Of a DNA stretch of 43,268 nt, positions 10,021-25,266 are shown piece after piece (position 1 is the stretch's first letter; every line of letters starts with the position of its first letter). Location: the NCBI GenBank assembly GCA_029982795.1, contig JARRBY010000003.1:1-43268 (forward strand), read 5' to 3'. The DNA comes from Patescibacteria group bacterium (GTDB lineage Bacteria > Patescibacteriota > Patescibacteriia > Patescibacteriales > UBA12465). The notes under the pieces are model-generated. The model searched no databases. It saw only the letters and a program-made list of their open reading frames with translations, and had not been told where the DNA came from. The translations under genes were made by a program, and so were the position numbers.

Positions 10021-12324
10021 ATGACAAACAGTAAACGTGAGGCGATTGGTAAAATCAGAAAACGGGATGGTCGCTTAGTGGCTTTCGATGCCAATTTTAT
10101 TATTAACGCTGTTACCAAAGCTTTTAAGCAAGTTGGGGCAGAAACTAACGGTTTTCCTAAAAAAATTAGTCAACAAGTAGAATCGGATTTACGTCGTTTG
10201 AAACGTTTATCAAAGGATAAAGACTTTATTCCCACAGTTGAAGTTATTCAAGATATAGTTGAGGAACAATTGATGATAAATGGATTTTCTAAGGTAGCTC
10301 GAGCTTATATTTTATATCGTGAAGAAAGGGCAAAAATTAGAGCAGCCGCTCGAAAAGTACCAGAACATGTAAAAAAATTAACTCAAGAAAGTAAAAAATA
10401 TTTTAAAAATCCCCTTGCTGAGTTTATTTTTTATCGCTCATATTCTCGTTGGATAGAGGAAGAAGGAAGACGTGAAACTTGGATAGAAACCGTTGATCGG
10501 TATATAAATTTTATGAAGGATAAATTGCAGGATAAGTTAACTGTCAAGGAATATGAAGAATTACGAGAGGCAATTTTAAAACAAGAAGTAATGCCTTCAA
10601 TGCGTTTAATGCAATTTTCCGGTAAAGCCGTCGAAAGAACTAATGTTTGTGCCTATAATTGTTCCTATATTGCTCCAGAAAATTTTCAAGATATTGCTGA
10701 AATCATGTATGTTTCTATGTGTGGTACGGGAGTAGGTTGGTCGGTAGAAAGTCGTAATGTGGAAAAATTTCCTCAAATTATGATTCAAACCGGGATAAAA
10801 AGAGATAAGTATATAATTCCTGATAGCAAGGAAGGTTGGGCAGATGCTTTGGCACTGGGAATGAAGGTTTGGGCAAAGGGAGAAGATATTGAATTTGATT
10901 ATTCATTGTTAAGACCGGCGGGAGCCCGTCTTAAAACCATGGGCGGAAAAAGTTCGGGCCCGGAGCCATTAAGACAGTTGTTAGACTTTACTCGTGTAAA
11001 AATGTTAAATCGTCAGGGCAGACGTCTAAGAACTATTGATTTGCATGATATTATTTGCATGATTGGCTATTGTGTTGTTTCTGGTGGTGTAAGGAGAAGC
11101 GCCATGATTTCATTATCTGACCTCGATGATAGAGATATACGTGATGCAAAAAAGGGGCAATTTTATATTACCGAACCACAAAGAAGTTTAGCAAATAATT
11201 CAGCGGTATTTATGAAAAAACCTGACAATGAAGAGTTTTTAAGTGAATGGTTGGCGCTTATTAAATCTGGTTCCGGAGAAAGAGGTATCTTTAATCGTGG
11301 TTCATTGGTAAAAACATTGCCGGCGCGCCGTTTGGAAATATTGCGTGAGAAAAAGGGGTTTTTCTCTGCTGATGGTCAAATTATGTTAGGTCAAATGGGT
11401 ACTAATCCTTGCGGGGAAATTATTTTGCAATCAAAGCAGTTTTGTAATTTATCTGAAGTGGTGGCAAGAGCTGAAGATGATGAAGAATCTTTACTGCGAA
11501 AGGTAAAATTAGCCGCTATTTTAGGGACTTATCAGGCCACTTTAACTGATTTCCCTTATTTATCAAAAACATGGCAAATAAATTGTGAAAGTGAACGTTT
11601 GTTGGGAGTTTCGGTGACTGGTCAATGGGATTCAAAAGTAGCTCGTGAGGAAAAGGTTCTACAAAAGTTAAAGGATGAGGCGGTAAGGGTAAATAAATTA
11701 TATGCGAAAAAATTTGGCATTAATCAGTCTTCTGCAGTAACTTGTGTTAAACCATCAGGCACAGTTTCACAATTAACTGATTGTGCTTCCGGAATGCATG
11801 CTCGTTATGCTCCTTATTATATCCGTCGCGTTCGTATTTCGGCAACTGATTCTTTATTTAGAATGTTACGTGATCAAGGAGTACCTTTTAAACCTGAAGT
11901 GGGACAATCATATGAAAATGCAACAACTTTTGTTTTTGAATTTCCGGTTAGAGCCCCAAAGGGGTCTATCTTTAGTCGTGATTTATCGGCTCTTGATCAG
12001 TTAGAGCATTGGAAGAAGGTAAAACTTAATTTCACAGAACATAATCCTTCTGTTACTATTTCTGTTGGTGAAAATGAATGGATAGAGGTAGCTGATTGGG
12101 TTTATAATAATTGGGATATAGTTGGTGGTTTATCTTTCTTGCCTCGTTCAAATCATATTTATGATCTTGCTCCTTATGAGGAAATTAATAAGGAAAAATA
12201 TGATGAATTGATGGTTAAATTTAAGGATATGGATTTTGCTCAAATTGTTGTTTATGAAAAAAAAGATGAAACTGAGGCAAAGAAAGAATTAGCTTGCGCT
12301 GGTGGCGCTTGTGAAGTTAATTAA
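10021..12324 (+). CDS. nrdJ: adenosylcobalamin-dependent (class II) ribonucleoside-triphosphate/diphosphate reductase with ATP-cone
   Basis: IRKRDGRLVAFD ATP-cone; NPCGEIIL; PSGTVSQL; C-terminal ACAGGAC redox tail. Confidence 0.9.
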   Translation: MTNSKREAIGKIRKRDGRLVAFDANFIINAVTKAFKQVGAETNGFPKKISQQVESDLRRLKRLSKDKDFIPTVEVIQDIVEEQLMINGFSKVARAYILYREERAKIRAAARKVPEHVKKLTQESKKYFKNPLAEFIFYRSYSRWIEEEGRRETWIETVDRYINFMKDKLQDKLTVKEYEELREAILKQEVMPSMRLMQFSGKAVERTNVCAYNCSYIAPENFQDIAEIMYVSMCGTGVGWSVESRNVEKFPQIMIQTGIKRDKYIIPDSKEGWADALALGMKVWAKGEDIEFDYSLLRPAGARLKTMGGKSSGPEPLRQLLDFTRVKMLNRQGRRLRTIDLHDIICMIGYCVVSGGVRRSAMISLSDLDDRDIRDAKKGQFYITEPQRSLANNSAVFMKKPDNEEFLSEWLALIKSGSGERGIFNRGSLVKTLPARRLEILREKKGFFSADGQIMLGQMGTNPCGEIILQSKQFCNLSEVVARAEDDEESLLRKVKLAAILGTYQATLTDFPYLSKTWQINCESERLLGVSVTGQWDSKVAREEKVLQKLKDEAVRVNKLYAKKFGINQSSAVTCVKPSGTVSQLTDCASGMHARYAPYYIRRVRISATDSLFRMLRDQGVPFKPEVGQSYENATTFVFEFPVRAPKGSIFSRDLSALDQLEHWKKVKLNFTEHNPSVTISVGENEWIEVADWVYNNWDIVGGLSFLPRSNHIYDLAPYEEINKEKYDELMVKFKDMDFAQIVVYEKKDETEAKKELACAGGACEVN

Positions 12325-12327
12325 AAT

Positions 12328-12864
12328 ATGTATTACACTGGTCAAGGTGATACTGGTAGCTCAAAATTATTTAATTCTTCCAGTCGATTAGCTAAAAGTG
12401 AACAAATTTTTGTAGTTTTAGGAACTTTAGATGAATTAAACTCATATTTAGGTTTTGCTTCAACTTTTAGTGAACAAGAAACACAAATTTTAGTCGCTCT
12501 TAAAAGGGAACAGGATAATTTATTTACTTTACAAGCTCATTTTGCCAAGGCTCAGTTAACAATTAGTCCGGATTTAATTATTAATTTGGAGGCTGATATT
12601 AATAAATGGGAAAAAGAAATAAGTCCCATTAATAATTTTATTGTTCCCGGCGGCAGCAAACTAAGTGCTATTTTAGATATAGCACGAACGATAGCACGTC
12701 GAGCAGAAAGGGAAGCCCTTTCCTTAAATACTGAGATTAGAATTAGTTATAATAAATTAGCTTTTGTTTATCTTAATCGTTTGTCTAGTTGGTTATATGT
12801 GTTAGCGCGACTTGCGAATTATAAAACGGAGCAACCGGAAATAACTCCGCAATATAATAAATAA
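12328..12864 (+). CDS. PduO-type cob(I)alamin adenosyltransferase
   Basis: YTGQGDTGSSKLFN, LGTLDELNSYLGF, FIVPGGSKLSAILDIARTIARRAER. Confidence 0.93.
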   Translation: MYYTGQGDTGSSKLFNSSSRLAKSEQIFVVLGTLDELNSYLGFASTFSEQETQILVALKREQDNLFTLQAHFAKAQLTISPDLIINLEADINKWEKEISPINNFIVPGGSKLSAILDIARTIARRAEREALSLNTEIRISYNKLAFVYLNRLSSWLYVLARLANYKTEQPEITPQYNK

Positions 12865-19997: not shown

Positions 19998-21011
19998 ATG
20001 CAAAAAATAAATATCGCAATAAACGGCTTTGGCCGTATTGGTCGCAGTGCTTTAAAAATAATTGTTGATTGCTTTCCCAACATAAATATAGTTGCCATTA
20101 ATGATTTAGCTGATGTAGAAATTTTAGCGCATTTGCTTCGCTTTGATTCGGTTTATGGTAATTATAACAAATCAGTCAGTTACAGTGATAACAAGTTAAT
20201 TGTTGATAAAAAGAAAATTCCGGTTTTTGCTAGCAAAGATCCAAGCCAGCTTCCGTGGCAGCAATTAAAAGTTGATGTGGTGCTTGAGTGTACCGGCGTA
20301 TTTCGTGATAAAGAAGCGCTTAGTTTGCACCTTAAAGCTGGCGCTAAGAAGGTGATTCTTTCCGCTCCCGCTAAAGGCAAGGGGGTGAAAATGATAGTTC
20401 TGGGCGTAAATGAGAAAAAAATCTTAAAGGGAGATGACTTAATTTCTTGCGCTTCTTGCACTACTAATTGTTTAGCGCCGGCAACAGAAATAATTAGACA
20501 AAAATTTGGTATTAAAAAAGCTTTAATGACTACAATTCATGCTTATACGGCTAATCAAAATATAGTTGATGGCCCCAGTAAAGATAAACGTCGTGCTCGT
20601 GCCGGGGCTTTGAATATAGTGCCAACAACTACAGGAGCAGCCATTGCTACCACTGAAGTTATTCCTCAATTAAAGAATAATTTTGATGGCATGTCGGTAC
20701 GTGTACCGGTGCCAGTTGGCTCTTTGGTTGATGCTGTTTATATTTTAAAGAAAAAGACAACGGTGGCTGAAGTTAATGAGGTGTTAACAAAGGCCGCCGC
20801 GGGAAAGTTAAAAGGAATTATGGCTGTTACTCATGAGGAAATTGTATCTTCTGATATAATTGGGAATACCAACAGTACCATTATTGACGCTGCTTCAACT
20901 AAGGTTTTAGGAGGTGATATGCTAAAACTTATCTCTTGGTATGATAATGAGTGGGGATACTCTAATCGTTTAGTAGAGCTTGCTCTTTTAACCGCTAAAT
21001 TTATTAAATAA
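19998..21011 (+). CDS. gap: glyceraldehyde-3-phosphate dehydrogenase
   Basis: INGFGRIGR, SCASCTTNCLAPA, SWYDNEWGYSNRL. Confidence 0.96.
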   Translation: MQKINIAINGFGRIGRSALKIIVDCFPNINIVAINDLADVEILAHLLRFDSVYGNYNKSVSYSDNKLIVDKKKIPVFASKDPSQLPWQQLKVDVVLECTGVFRDKEALSLHLKAGAKKVILSAPAKGKGVKMIVLGVNEKKILKGDDLISCASCTTNCLAPATEIIRQKFGIKKALMTTIHAYTANQNIVDGPSKDKRRARAGALNIVPTTTGAAIATTEVIPQLKNNFDGMSVRVPVPVGSLVDAVYILKKKTTVAEVNEVLTKAAAGKLKGIMAVTHEEIVSSDIIGNTNSTIIDAASTKVLGGDMLKLISWYDNEWGYSNRLVELALLTAKFIK

Positions 21012-21027: not shown

Positions 21028-21765
21028 ATGATGTTAAAAAATAAAGTAGCGATAGTAACCGGTGCTGCTTCGGGAATTGGACGAGCAATTGCTGATTTAT
21101 TTGTTAGCGAAGGTGCTAAGGTGATCTACTCTGATATTCATAAGAACCTGACTGGTTTTAAAACAAGTGCAAAAAAGGCAATTTATGTACCTTGTGATGT
21201 TTCCAATCAGGCAGAAGTAAAGGCTTTGGTAGCAAAAGCCAAGGAGATTTATAAGGGTTTGGATATTATGGTTAATAATGCTGGTGTTGGTGGATCAGGG
21301 GGGATTTTAGAAGTTTCGGCTGATGATTTTGACAGAACTCTTAAAATTAATTTATATGGAGTTTTTTATGGTACTCAGATTGCAGCTCAAACTATGAAAG
21401 CTGCTAAAACAAAGGGTAATATTATTAATATTTCATCTATTTTAGGAACGGTTGGGATGGAACAATCCTTAGCTTATTGCACTTCCAAGGGTGGAGTTGA
21501 ACAATTAACAAGAGCGGCTGCCTTAGATTTAGCTACACTGGGTATTCGGGTTAATGCAATTGCTCCCGCTTTTATTAAAACAAAGATGACGGAAGGCATT
21601 TTACATGATAAAAAATTTAATCAGATGATAGTTAATAATACTCCGCTTGGTTATGTGGGCGAGCCGAAAGATATAGCAAATGCGGCCCTTTATTTAGCGA
21701 GCGATAAGGCAAAGTATATTACCGGTAGTACTCTGCGTGTTGATGGAGGTTGGACTATACACTAA
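21028..21765 (+). CDS. short-chain dehydrogenase/reductase
   Basis: VTGAASGIGRAIA, NNAGVGG, AYCTSKGG (YxxxK). Confidence 0.93.
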   Translation: MMLKNKVAIVTGAASGIGRAIADLFVSEGAKVIYSDIHKNLTGFKTSAKKAIYVPCDVSNQAEVKALVAKAKEIYKGLDIMVNNAGVGGSGGILEVSADDFDRTLKINLYGVFYGTQIAAQTMKAAKTKGNIINISSILGTVGMEQSLAYCTSKGGVEQLTRAAALDLATLGIRVNAIAPAFIKTKMTEGILHDKKFNQMIVNNTPLGYVGEPKDIANAALYLASDKAKYITGSTLRVDGGWTIH

Positions 21766-21766
21766 A

Positions 21767-22807
21767 ATGACAAATTTAGCGTTAATAAAAAAAATAGAAG
21801 AATCAGGGTTAACTGGTCGGGGTGGTGGTTCTTTTTCGGTTGCAAAAAAATGGCAATTAGTGAAAAAAAATTTAAAGGGTAATAATCCGGGATATATTAT
21901 TATAAATGGCGCTGAAGGTGAGCCGGAAGTAAAAAAAGATGGTTATTTATTAGCGCAAGAAACAGAATCAGTTATAGCCGGGGTTTATTATGCTTTTCTC
22001 TATTTAGGGAAAAAAAATGTTAAGGCAATTTATTTCTATTTAAATCCAATATATTTTAAAAAATATAGAGCAAGAATTGAAAAAGTATTAAAGAATAGTT
22101 TGTATAAAGAATTGGCAAAAAAAGTGATTTTTTATAAAAAATCGGAAGAGAGTGGTTATATTGGCGGGGAAGAGAGTGTGGTAATAAATATTATAAGCGG
22201 CAAAAAAGCTCAGCCAAACCAGAGACCGCCATTTCCAGTTGAAATTGGTTTATTTGAAAAACCAACTCTAATTAATAATGTTGAGACTTTTTATAATATC
22301 GCTTTAATTGCTACAGGTGTTTACGATAACAAACGGCTTTATACTTTAGCGGGAGCTTGTCGTCATAAAGGAGTGTATAATTTACCCGCTACTATGAGTA
22401 TCGCTGATGTTCTGCAGGCCACTGATAATTATCCCGATTTTCCTTTTTTTGTTATTGCCGGTGGTGGAGTTTGTGGAGAAGTTTTAGATGAAAATCAACT
22501 TTTAGCCGGGGTGGAAGGTTCGGGTTTGATTATGATTTTTGATCATCGTCAAACTGATTATGATAAGTTGCTTAATTATTGGTTACGATTTTATAAAAAC
22601 CAAAGTTGTGGTTTATGTACTCCTTGTCGTGAAGGTAGTTATCGTTTGCATGAATTAGCTAAGGAAAAAAAGATTAAGGAGGAAAAATTTATTGATCTTT
22701 TAGACAATTTAGAACAAAGTACTTTTTGTGCTCTAGGTTCTTCTTTAACCTATACGGTGAAAAGTTATTTAGAAAATATTTATTTTAAATATAAAAAATA
22801 TGACTGA
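21767..22807 (+). CDS. NuoF/HydB-like flavin iron-sulfur subunit, N- and C-terminally reduced
   Basis: GLTGRGGGSFSVAKKW, GGEESVV, PPFPVEIGLFEKPTLINNVETF, SCGLCTPCREG...C; ATG 21767 follows the SDR stop. Confidence 0.88.
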   Translation: MTNLALIKKIEESGLTGRGGGSFSVAKKWQLVKKNLKGNNPGYIIINGAEGEPEVKKDGYLLAQETESVIAGVYYAFLYLGKKNVKAIYFYLNPIYFKKYRARIEKVLKNSLYKELAKKVIFYKKSEESGYIGGEESVVINIISGKKAQPNQRPPFPVEIGLFEKPTLINNVETFYNIALIATGVYDNKRLYTLAGACRHKGVYNLPATMSIADVLQATDNYPDFPFFVIAGGGVCGEVLDENQLLAGVEGSGLIMIFDHRQTDYDKLLNYWLRFYKNQSCGLCTPCREGSYRLHELAKEKKIKEEKFIDLLDNLEQSTFCALGSSLTYTVKSYLENIYFKYKKYD

Positions 22808-23564
22808 AGAAAAAAATGAAATTACTGTTCAACCGGTTGATAAAAAAAAGGAATTACCCTCTTTTTTTAGCAGTTTAGAAAGGGCAACTAAATTATGGTG
22901 GAAACATTTAAAAAAAATTGTTTTAATTTATTTAGAAGGGCTTAAATTAGCCTTAATTCCTTTACTTATTTTGCTTTCAATAATAGTTTTGGATTTTAAT
23001 TTATTTAGTGAGCGGTTTTCTTTAGCTTGGCTTGATTTAGTTTTATTTGTGGCCTCTTTTCTATTAACCTTTTACTTTTTTTCACGAGCGGAGATTGCTA
23101 TTTTCCTTTTTATAAAAAATGGTTTTAAAGGTGAAGCCAAAACTTTGTTTAAAAAAACACGTCCTTTATTTTGGCCCTATTTTTGGCTGGGTTTATTAAC
23201 CTTTATTTTAATTTTTTTATGGAGCCTGCTTTTAATTATTCCCGGTTTAATATTTAGCGCTTATTATGTTTTAGCGGTGTATGCTTTTTTCAGTGAAGGA
23301 AAAAAAGGTTGGTCGGCTATTTCGCGAAGCAAATTTTTAGTAAATGGTTATTTTTGGCCCATATTTGGACGTTTCCTTTTTTTCTTCATTTTAGCTTATT
23401 TGTTTGGTAGTATTATTGACATCCCTCAATCAGTTTTAACTGAAGATAGTGTGATGTTTAAAACTTGGGATTTGATTGAACAAGTTATTATTACTTTAGT
23501 GATTCCTATTTTCATTATTTTCTTTTACGACGTTTATGATTTCTTAGCTAAGAGCAAAAAATAA
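22800..23564 (+). CDS. multipass membrane protein of unknown function within the hydrogenase cluster
   Basis: Start overlaps the nuoF-like stop by 8 nt; several TM segments. Confidence 0.8.
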   Translation: MTEEKNEITVQPVDKKKELPSFFSSLERATKLWWKHLKKIVLIYLEGLKLALIPLLILLSIIVLDFNLFSERFSLAWLDLVLFVASFLLTFYFFSRAEIAIFLFIKNGFKGEAKTLFKKTRPLFWPYFWLGLLTFILIFLWSLLLIIPGLIFSAYYVLAVYAFFSEGKKGWSAISRSKFLVNGYFWPIFGRFLFFFILAYLFGSIIDIPQSVLTEDSVMFKTWDLIEQVIITLVIPIFIIFFYDVYDFLAKSKK

Positions 23565-23568
23565 GAAC

Positions 23569-25266
23569 ATGCAGGTAATTATTGATAAAAAAAAGATAGA
23601 GGCCAAAAAAAATGAAACTATTTTGGCGGTTGCACAGAGAGTTGGGATAGATATTCCTTATCTTTCATTTAATCCCGAACTTAGAGGTAAAGGGGGTGAT
23701 AGAGTGGCTTTGGTTGAAGTAAAAGGTGAAAGTAAGTTAATGTCGGCGGAAACTACAAAAGTGCGCGAAGGAATGATAATTTTTACCAATTCAAGTAAAG
23801 TACAGCGTTTTCGTCGTTTAAATTTAGAATTAATTTTTGCGTCTCATATTGAAAAATGCGCTGATTGCACTTTGCGTTTTAATTGTCGTCTTTTGGAATT
23901 AGCGCGTCTTCAGCAAATAAAAATTAGTGAGTTTTCTGATCGAAAAGCTTTGCGTAAAACCTATCGCTTTTCTACTGCGGTTGAAATTGATGGAACGCAA
24001 TGCATTGATTGTGGTAACTGTATTGAAGCTTGCGCTTTGCAGGGAATTAATTTTCTCCAATTTACAGGTAAAGGTTATCAGCAAGAGTTAAAGCCAACAA
24101 ATGATAAAAGTAGAGTTTGTATTCATTGTGGGCAATGTACTAATGTTTGTCCGGTAGCGGCCGCTCAAGAACAGCTGGAGTGGCCACAGGTGGAAAAGGT
24201 TTTAGCTGATAAAACTAAGATAGTGGTGGCGCAATTTGCTCCCGCCGCTCGCGTTTCTATTGGTGAAGAGTTTGGAATGAAACAAGGAACTGATTGTACT
24301 AAAAAAATAAATACCGCCCTTAAAGAATTGGGCTTTGCTTATAGTTTTGATATTAATTTTGGGGCCGATATTACAACGATGATTGAGGCTGAAGAATTAT
24401 TGCAACGTTTAAAAAACAAAAAGAATTTACCCCTTTTTACTTCTTGTTGTCCGGCTTGGGTTACTTATGCTGAATCATATTATCCTGAATTACTCCCCCA
24501 TCTTACCACCGCTCGCTCTCCTCATATTCATAGTGCGGGGGCAATTAAGACCTATTTTGCAAAGAAAAAAGGGTTAGATAGACGGCAAATTAAGGTTGTG
24601 TCTATAGTCCCTTGTACAGCTAAAAAGCAGGAAGCTGTAAGAACTGAATTATATTATCAAAAAGAACCGCTAGTTGATTATGTCTTGACTGTTCGTGAAT
24701 TTGCTTTTATGCTAAAAAAGCGACAAATTGACTTGGCTCGATTGAAAGAAAGTGAAACTGAACCTTTATTTAATGATGGTTCGGGGGCGGCGGCTATTTA
24801 TGGTGCTTCCGGCGGTGTAATGGAATCGGCTTTGCGGACGGCTCTTTTTTTAAACAGTACCAAAGAAAAAAAGATTTCTAATGATTTTCGCTTAGATTTT
24901 AAAGAATTGCGACTTAATAAAAATATTAAGGAAGCGGAAATAATGTTGGGAAAACGAAAATTGCGACTGGCCGTTATTAATGGAATTGCCAATTTTCATT
25001 ATATTTTACCCCATTTAAATAAATATCATTATATTGAAGTGATGGCTTGTCCGGGGGGATGTTTAGGTGGAGGAGGACAGCCTCTTCCTAATACTAAAGA
25101 AATCAAAGAAGCTCGAAGAAAAGCATTATACCAAATTGATAAAGATAAAAAAATCAGACGAGCTCATGAAAATAAAGCTATGTTAACTTATTATAATTGG
25201 GTTAAAACGAATAAATTAGAAGCTAAACTATTACATACAAAGTATTTTTCTCGAAAAAGAACTTAA
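23569..25266 (+). CDS. hydA: [FeFe]-hydrogenase catalytic subunit (group A-like)
   Basis: H-cluster motifs TSCCPAWV, VPCTAKKQE, EVMACPGGCLGGGGQP; two [4Fe-4S] CxxCxxCxxxC; His-Cys3 HIEKCADCTLRFNC. Confidence 0.93.
   Translation: MQVIIDKKKIEAKKNETILAVAQRVGIDIPYLSFNPELRGKGGDRVALVEVKGESKLMSAETTKVREGMIIFTNSSKVQRFRRLNLELIFASHIEKCADCTLRFNCRLLELARLQQIKISEFSDRKALRKTYRFSTAVEIDGTQCIDCGNCIEACALQGINFLQFTGKGYQQELKPTNDKSRVCIHCGQCTNVCPVAAAQEQLEWPQVEKVLADKTKIVVAQFAPAARVSIGEEFGMKQGTDCTKKINTALKELGFAYSFDINFGADITTMIEAEELLQRLKNKKNLPLFTSCCPAWVTYAESYYPELLPHLTTARSPHIHSAGAIKTYFAKKKGLDRRQIKVVSIVPCTAKKQEAVRTELYYQKEPLVDYVLTVREFAFMLKKRQIDLARLKESETEPLFNDGSGAAAIYGASGGVMESALRTALFLNSTKEKKISNDFRLDFKELRLNKNIKEAEIMLGKRKLRLAVINGIANFHYILPHLNKYHYIEVMACPGGCLGGGGQPLPNTKEIKEARRKALYQIDKDKKIRRAHENKAMLTYYNWVKTNKLEAKLLHTKYFSRKRT

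Follow-up and report, generated by a model that had tools for sequence, protein, structure and literature searches.

Loss of the [2Fe-2S] ligands from a retained N-terminal ferredoxin domain in a patescibacterial group A [FeFe]-hydrogenase

The group A [FeFe]-hydrogenase (HydA) of a Patescibacteria group bacterium carries an N-terminal Fer2 domain in which the four cysteine ligands of the [2Fe-2S] cluster have been replaced by serine, aspartate, alanine and glutamate. Judged from the sequences, the loss of these ligands is real, old and derived, and the cluster-less domain is under purifying selection and not in decay. The gene lies in a stretch of 43,268 nucleotides (contig JARRBY010000003.1), which was analysed as a whole and is called the window below; all coordinates refer to it. 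The host, which like the sister species described below is an uncultured, ultra-small bacterium, has a genome of 668,587 bp (98.8% complete); the named organisms closest to it are Candidatus Falkowbacteria and other MAGs of Patescibacteria. Our literature search found no reports on [FeFe]-hydrogenases of Falkowbacteria.

Results

The hydA gene (23569..25266, forward strand) encodes a protein of 565 aa, and its open reading frame starts with MQVIIDKKKIEAKKNETILAVAQRVGIDIPYLSFNPELRGKGGDRVALVEVKGESKLMSAETTKV. Pfam recognized Fer2_4 (residues 3-75, E 4e-11), two 4Fe-4S motifs, Fe_hyd_lg_C (5e-83) and Fe_hyd_SSU. The NCBIfam group A model TIGR02512 matched with 424 bits (cut-off 406); the top full-length NCBIfam model was the NADH-dependent group A6, with a score of 584 bits that stays below the strict cut-off of 765. 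The closest PDB structure is T. kivui HydA1 (Foldseek top match 8a6t_A, TM 0.89), and Foldseek also gave a full-length match to CpI with a TM of ~0.86-0.90. Following the Fer2 domain (residues 1-80, 23569..23808) is the His-Cys3 [4Fe-4S] site, called FS4C, or A4 in HydABC, which is intact and falls in conserved columns (H93, C97, C100 and C106; 23845..23886). The two [4Fe-4S] motifs, C145-C155 and C184-C194 (FS4B/FS4A, or A2/A3; 24001..24150), have all eight cysteines. In the H-domain and small-subunit domain (24217..25254), the L1, L2 and L3 cysteine motifs are all found (TSCCPAW, VPCTAKK and EVMACPGGCLGGGGQP), together with equivalents of CpI C299, E279, E282, S319 and R286. The original prediction that the His-Cys3 site, both [4Fe-4S] motifs and the H-cluster domain are intact is thus correct for every ligand. 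On its H-domain motifs and its TIGR02512 score above the cut-off, we assign the protein to the group A [FeFe]-hydrogenases. Of the features of an M3-type (CpI-like) F-domain, it has the His-Cys3 and the two [4Fe-4S] sites, and it does not have the four cysteines of FS2.

Alignment with CpI and T. kivui HydA places S33 (23665..23667), D44 (23698..23700), A47 (23707..23709) and E61 (23749..23751) at the first to fourth [2Fe-2S] cysteine positions, respectively. The CpI ligands are C34, C46, C49 and C62. HydA homologues were gathered from the window's order and beyond, and 76-78 of them possess a Fer2 domain. Cysteine occupies all four columns in 100% of these sequences (78/78 at the first position and 76/76 at each of the other three). 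The only exceptions are the window HydA and that of a sister species (Patescibacteria STF2_62, JAQWDY010000004.1), which is 83% identical and has the same S/D/A/E; the replacement of all four cysteines had been predicted in exactly this form. Very few further changes are common to the two proteins at positions with at least 88% conservation. From cysteine codons, the replacements require a minimum of 1, 2, 2 and 3 nucleotide changes (codons TCA/TCT, GAT, GCT and GAA). Under random loss of four among ~20 conserved ligand positions, exactly these four would be hit with a probability of 1/4845.

The two species' Fer2 domains are 77% identical, and the identity of the four residues in both is therefore not significant alone. 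It does bear on whether the replacements arose from a sequencing or assembly error, which the prediction had named as a way in which it could fail, or from a wrong reading frame. Nothing in favour of an error was found, one to three nucleotides per codon would have to be miscalled, and the same four replacements are present in a separately assembled genome at 83% protein identity; the chance of such an artefact is practically negligible. Cysteines from elsewhere do not fill the site, since residues 1-96 contain none and the earliest is C97. The single HydA copy in the host genome also rules out a second HydA with an intact cluster. As for an alternative metal site with S33, D44 and E61 as oxygen ligands, no evidence was found.

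An AlphaFold model of the window HydA (mean pLDDT 86.5) retains the beta-grasp fold in the Fer2 domain, with values of ~90 in the core and 70-74 in the former ligand loop. The same loop has values of ~50-75 in the model of a cysteine-bearing relative, which was truncated by five N-terminal residues. These models make a Fer2 fold plausible in the absence of the cluster, which is as far as they go. Together with the Pfam match, they agree with the Fer2-type domain that had been recognized from the sequence. In two other HydA sequences of the set (L089 and L110, family f20), long low-complexity insertions are located between the third and fourth [2Fe-2S] cysteines, near the equivalents of residues 52-54 of the window HydA.

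A HydB/NuoF-like subunit with FMN and [4Fe-4S] sites is encoded upstream of hydA (21767..22807, forward strand; Complex1_51K and NADH_4Fe-4S in Pfam). Its open reading frame opens at GTG 21737, with a maximum of 356 aa; since the ATG at 21767 is where relatives start, translation more likely begins at that codon. The protein retains GRGG, the phenylalanine of GRGGxGF, GEE and the N3-type ligands CxxCxxCREG...C, which identify it as a NuoF/HydB flavin subunit. It consists of the FMN domain and the N3-type [4Fe-4S] site only, and has neither the N-terminal [2Fe-2S] (thioredoxin-like) domain nor the C-terminal 2x[4Fe-4S] bridge domain. HydC/NuoE (PF01257) is absent from the host genome and 18 relatives (0/19 genomes), and no such subunit was found to be encoded elsewhere in the host genome. 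HydB of the window and of the sister species have four changes at the flavin/NADH loops (A31G, P34S, G64E and R161N/S in ORF numbering), at positions that are otherwise invariant in 14 relatives; the distant NuoF/HydB chains that were aligned conserve most of them as well.

The gene order GAPDH-(SDR)-hydB-mem-hydA-cca is kept across most of the genus. In the window it is headed by GAPDH (19998..21011), the SDR-family oxidoreductase (21028..21765) lies between GAPDH and hydB, and a membrane protein of ~254 aa (22800..23564) is located between hydB and hydA, all on the forward strand. The membrane protein is syntenic in most of the genus and has no Pfam or NCBIfam match. HydA and HydB are missing from the locus in two members of the genus. 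In one of them (G002) GAPDH is directly followed by cca, and the other (G005) has the order GAPDH-mem-cca. Since the latter keeps the membrane protein at a locus with neither HydA nor HydB, this protein may not be hydrogenase-specific. In another part of the window (10021-12864), a ribonucleotide reductase with ATP-cone, RNR alpha and barrel domains is found beside a cobalamin adenosyltransferase, which suggests that the reductase of this small genome is B12-dependent.

Comparison of hydA between the window and the sister species yielded a dS of ~1.1, at which silent sites are saturated, and an omega of 0.093 for the whole gene. By part, omega is 0.119 for residues 1-80 and 0.051 for residues 211-430; hydB has an omega of 0.079 and a dS of 1.4. 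In both species hydA is a single intact open reading frame, and there is no indel between them. The divergence of the Fer2 domain relative to the remaining HydA is 1.44, within the range of 0.66-2.73 seen in control pairs (119 pairs, all others cysteine-bearing). The original prediction had argued against gene decay, and it is upheld by the intact frame, the absence of indels, the control range and the omega values, the last of which rule decay out. A downstream start codon that bypasses the Fer2 domain is also unlikely, given purifying selection on residues 1-80 and the lack of indels between the species.

In a tree of the HydA core, the window and the sister species are nested in the genus as the sister group of four cysteine-bearing species (99/95 support); therefore the loss is derived. 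On the stem branch of the pair, the path ratio is 5.0 for the Fer2 domain versus 2.5-2.7 for the HydA core, and the domain thus changed ~2x faster. By this measure the HydA core lies between cca (1.9) and GAPDH (3.7), so an acceleration of the whole hydrogenase is not specific and the Fer2 domain alone stands out; the lineage is fast in general, and the rates of cca, GAPDH, HydB and the HydA core scatter about that level. The simplest reading is that one cluster loss was followed by a burst of change in the domain and then by lasting constraint. It could be argued that the domain is an evolutionary leftover heading for loss, as its fast stem branch and the outright loss of HydA and HydB at the locus in two genus members would allow. 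However, such a leftover would not be expected to evolve at an omega of 0.12 where dS is saturated, nor to have kept its frame, free of indels, in the two living species. This selection signal has already largely refuted the idea, and we consider it very improbable.

HydA is present in 68 of the 111 genomes of the window's order (G000-G110), for example in one that is assembled as a single contig (G003). True HydG was found in three of the 111 only (G043, G061 and G097); it is absent from the host genome and from 108 of the 111, three of which have weak sub-threshold matches. Of 28 genomes tested for HydF, only G043 has it; the remaining 27 gave matches to EngA-like GTPases only. HydE is not among the six radical-SAM proteins of the host genome, which are MiaB, MtaB, RlmN, Elp3, a SPASM type and a B12-binding type. 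The H-cluster ligands and proton-path residues are conserved across dozens of genomes that have no maturases. The absence of all known H-cluster maturases from the host genome weakens the claim of H2 activity and leaves the family membership of the sequence as it is. It appears that bacteria of this order either gain the di-iron cofactor by some other route or use HydA in another role.

Discussion

In the HydABC complex of T. maritima, electrons follow the chain FMN-B2-A1-A2-A3-H, from which the His-ligated A4 branches off, and A1 links the HydB cluster B2 to A2 (PMC9499530). We take A1 to be the [2Fe-2S] cluster of the Fer2 domain, since it is homologous to N1b and HydB and HydC account for the two remaining [2Fe-2S] clusters that were resolved. 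Loss of A1 therefore leaves a gap between HydB and the remaining HydA. By analogy with complex I, we propose that the HydB [4Fe-4S] cluster may pass electrons directly to the ferredoxin-type clusters of HydA, with the empty Fer2 domain as a docking piece, and we give this proposal slightly less than an even chance. The ancestor of the two close Patescibacteria would have lost the A1/N1b-type [2Fe-2S] cluster from an NADH-linked HydAB, and the Fer2 domain would have stayed as a structural piece that fixes HydB on HydA. Electrons from NADH would enter at the HydB flavin, move to the N3-type [4Fe-4S] cluster and bypass the missing relay by a direct hop to the A2/A3 [4Fe-4S] pair of HydA, from which they would reach the H-cluster. 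We infer the docking of HydB by the domain, a sufficient speed of the hop and H2 as the product.

Such a direct hop is supported by the complete and lineage-specific loss of the ligands, by the retention of every other ligand and by purifying selection on both the empty domain and HydB; selection on HydB together with its cluster ligands would fit it. In E. coli complex I, the N1b domain physically joins NuoE/NuoF to NuoG, the complex without N1b has full NADH oxidase activity, and the direct step from N3 to N4 spans 14.9 Å and is ~10 times slower by calculation (PMC10175503). This distance is that of complex I and may differ in HydAB, and a tenfold slower step could be harmful to a turnover-limited hydrogenase even if complex I is unaffected. 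The four clade-specific HydB changes at near-universal flavin/NADH-loop positions count against the direct hop; they could mean that the function of HydB itself has been altered.

The HydB changes count in favour of another reading, in which the wire from HydB has been cut and HydA has become ferredoxin-linked. Electrons from a 2-oxoacid:ferredoxin oxidoreductase would then enter at the surface-exposed His-Cys3 cluster FS4C, and HydB would be left with docking or another diaphorase role. The His-Cys3 site is fully intact, and genes for POR gamma, delta and alpha are present in the host genome, as is a small ferredoxin. Whether electrons enter CpI-type enzymes such as CpI and CaHydA1 at FS2 or at FS4C is debated, which makes FS4C one of the two candidates (PMC12645427). 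However, cysteine-bearing relatives own the same oxidoreductase, so that no new electron source has been gained, and purifying selection still acts strongly on HydB and on the ligands of its cluster. In CaHydA1, FS2 rather than FS4C matters most for ferredoxin, and FS2 knockouts that preserve the scaffold have a lower affinity for it (PMC12645427). Entry at FS4C is on balance rather unlikely. The rewiring of electron entry in the original prediction corresponds to this reading; it is only partly supported and stands as one of two live options. It is set back by the retention under selection of HydB with its [4Fe-4S] ligands, and by E. coli complex I, in which loss of N1b is bypassed with the entry point unchanged (PMC10175503).

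H2 chemistry in the window HydA is not assured, since HydE, HydF and HydG are all absent. HydA may no longer be a working hydrogenase, or may not be one in this order at all. The H-domain would then hold at most the [4Fe-4S] part of its cofactor, and HydAB would serve in electron transfer or NADH oxidation, as a complex that could do with a simpler relay. The maturase survey is what such a complex would predict, with HydG missing from the host genome and 108 of 111 genomes, only EngA-like GTPases in place of HydF in 27 of 28, and the six radical-SAM proteins of the host genome all assigned to other families. Against it, the H-cluster ligands and proton-path residues are preserved in dozens of maturase-less genomes, and the omega of 0.05 for residues 211-430 is hard to explain without catalysis at a full cofactor. 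We regard this role as unlikely. Returning to the direct hop, its boldest form would be a naturally evolved HydAB [FeFe]-hydrogenase able to dispense with the A1/N1b relay, which is supposed to be obligatory, in a lineage that activates the H-cluster without HydE, HydF and HydG, through a borrowed cofactor or a new maturase; for this combination the prospects are poor.

A natural FS2 knockout with all else under selection provides a direct test case for the debated electron entry in these enzymes. A second, larger question is posed by the ~65 HydA-bearing genomes of a small-genome lineage that have no recognisable HydG.

The window HydA shares the order Fer2, His-Cys3, 2x[4Fe-4S] and H-domain with the M3-type group A enzymes CpI and CaHydA1. 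These bind the FS2 [2Fe-2S] cluster in the Fer2 domain, whereas the window HydA has none of the four ligands; the FS2 knockouts of CaHydA1 that keep the scaffold were engineered (PMC12645427), and the window HydA is a natural one. As in the bifurcating HydABC complexes of T. maritima, T. kivui and A. woodii, a NuoF-type HydB is encoded upstream, and among PDB structures HydA is nearest to T. kivui HydA1. The window system differs from them in that HydC/NuoE is absent, HydB has no extra domains and HydA has no A1 cluster. Hyd1ABC of Syntrophomonas wolfei, which is NADH-dependent and non-bifurcating, likewise combines a short HydB that has no extra clusters with an NADH-linked group A HydA; however, it has HydC and, as predicted in a review, the HydA [2Fe-2S] cluster, and the window system has neither (PMC6288185). 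The E. coli complex I without N1b, obtained in a bolA mutant or by H2O2 treatment, concerns the same domain and cluster position, and there the empty NuoG domain supports an active complex (PMC10175503). That complex lacks its cluster for other reasons and still has the cysteines, whereas in the window HydA evolution has substituted the ligands.
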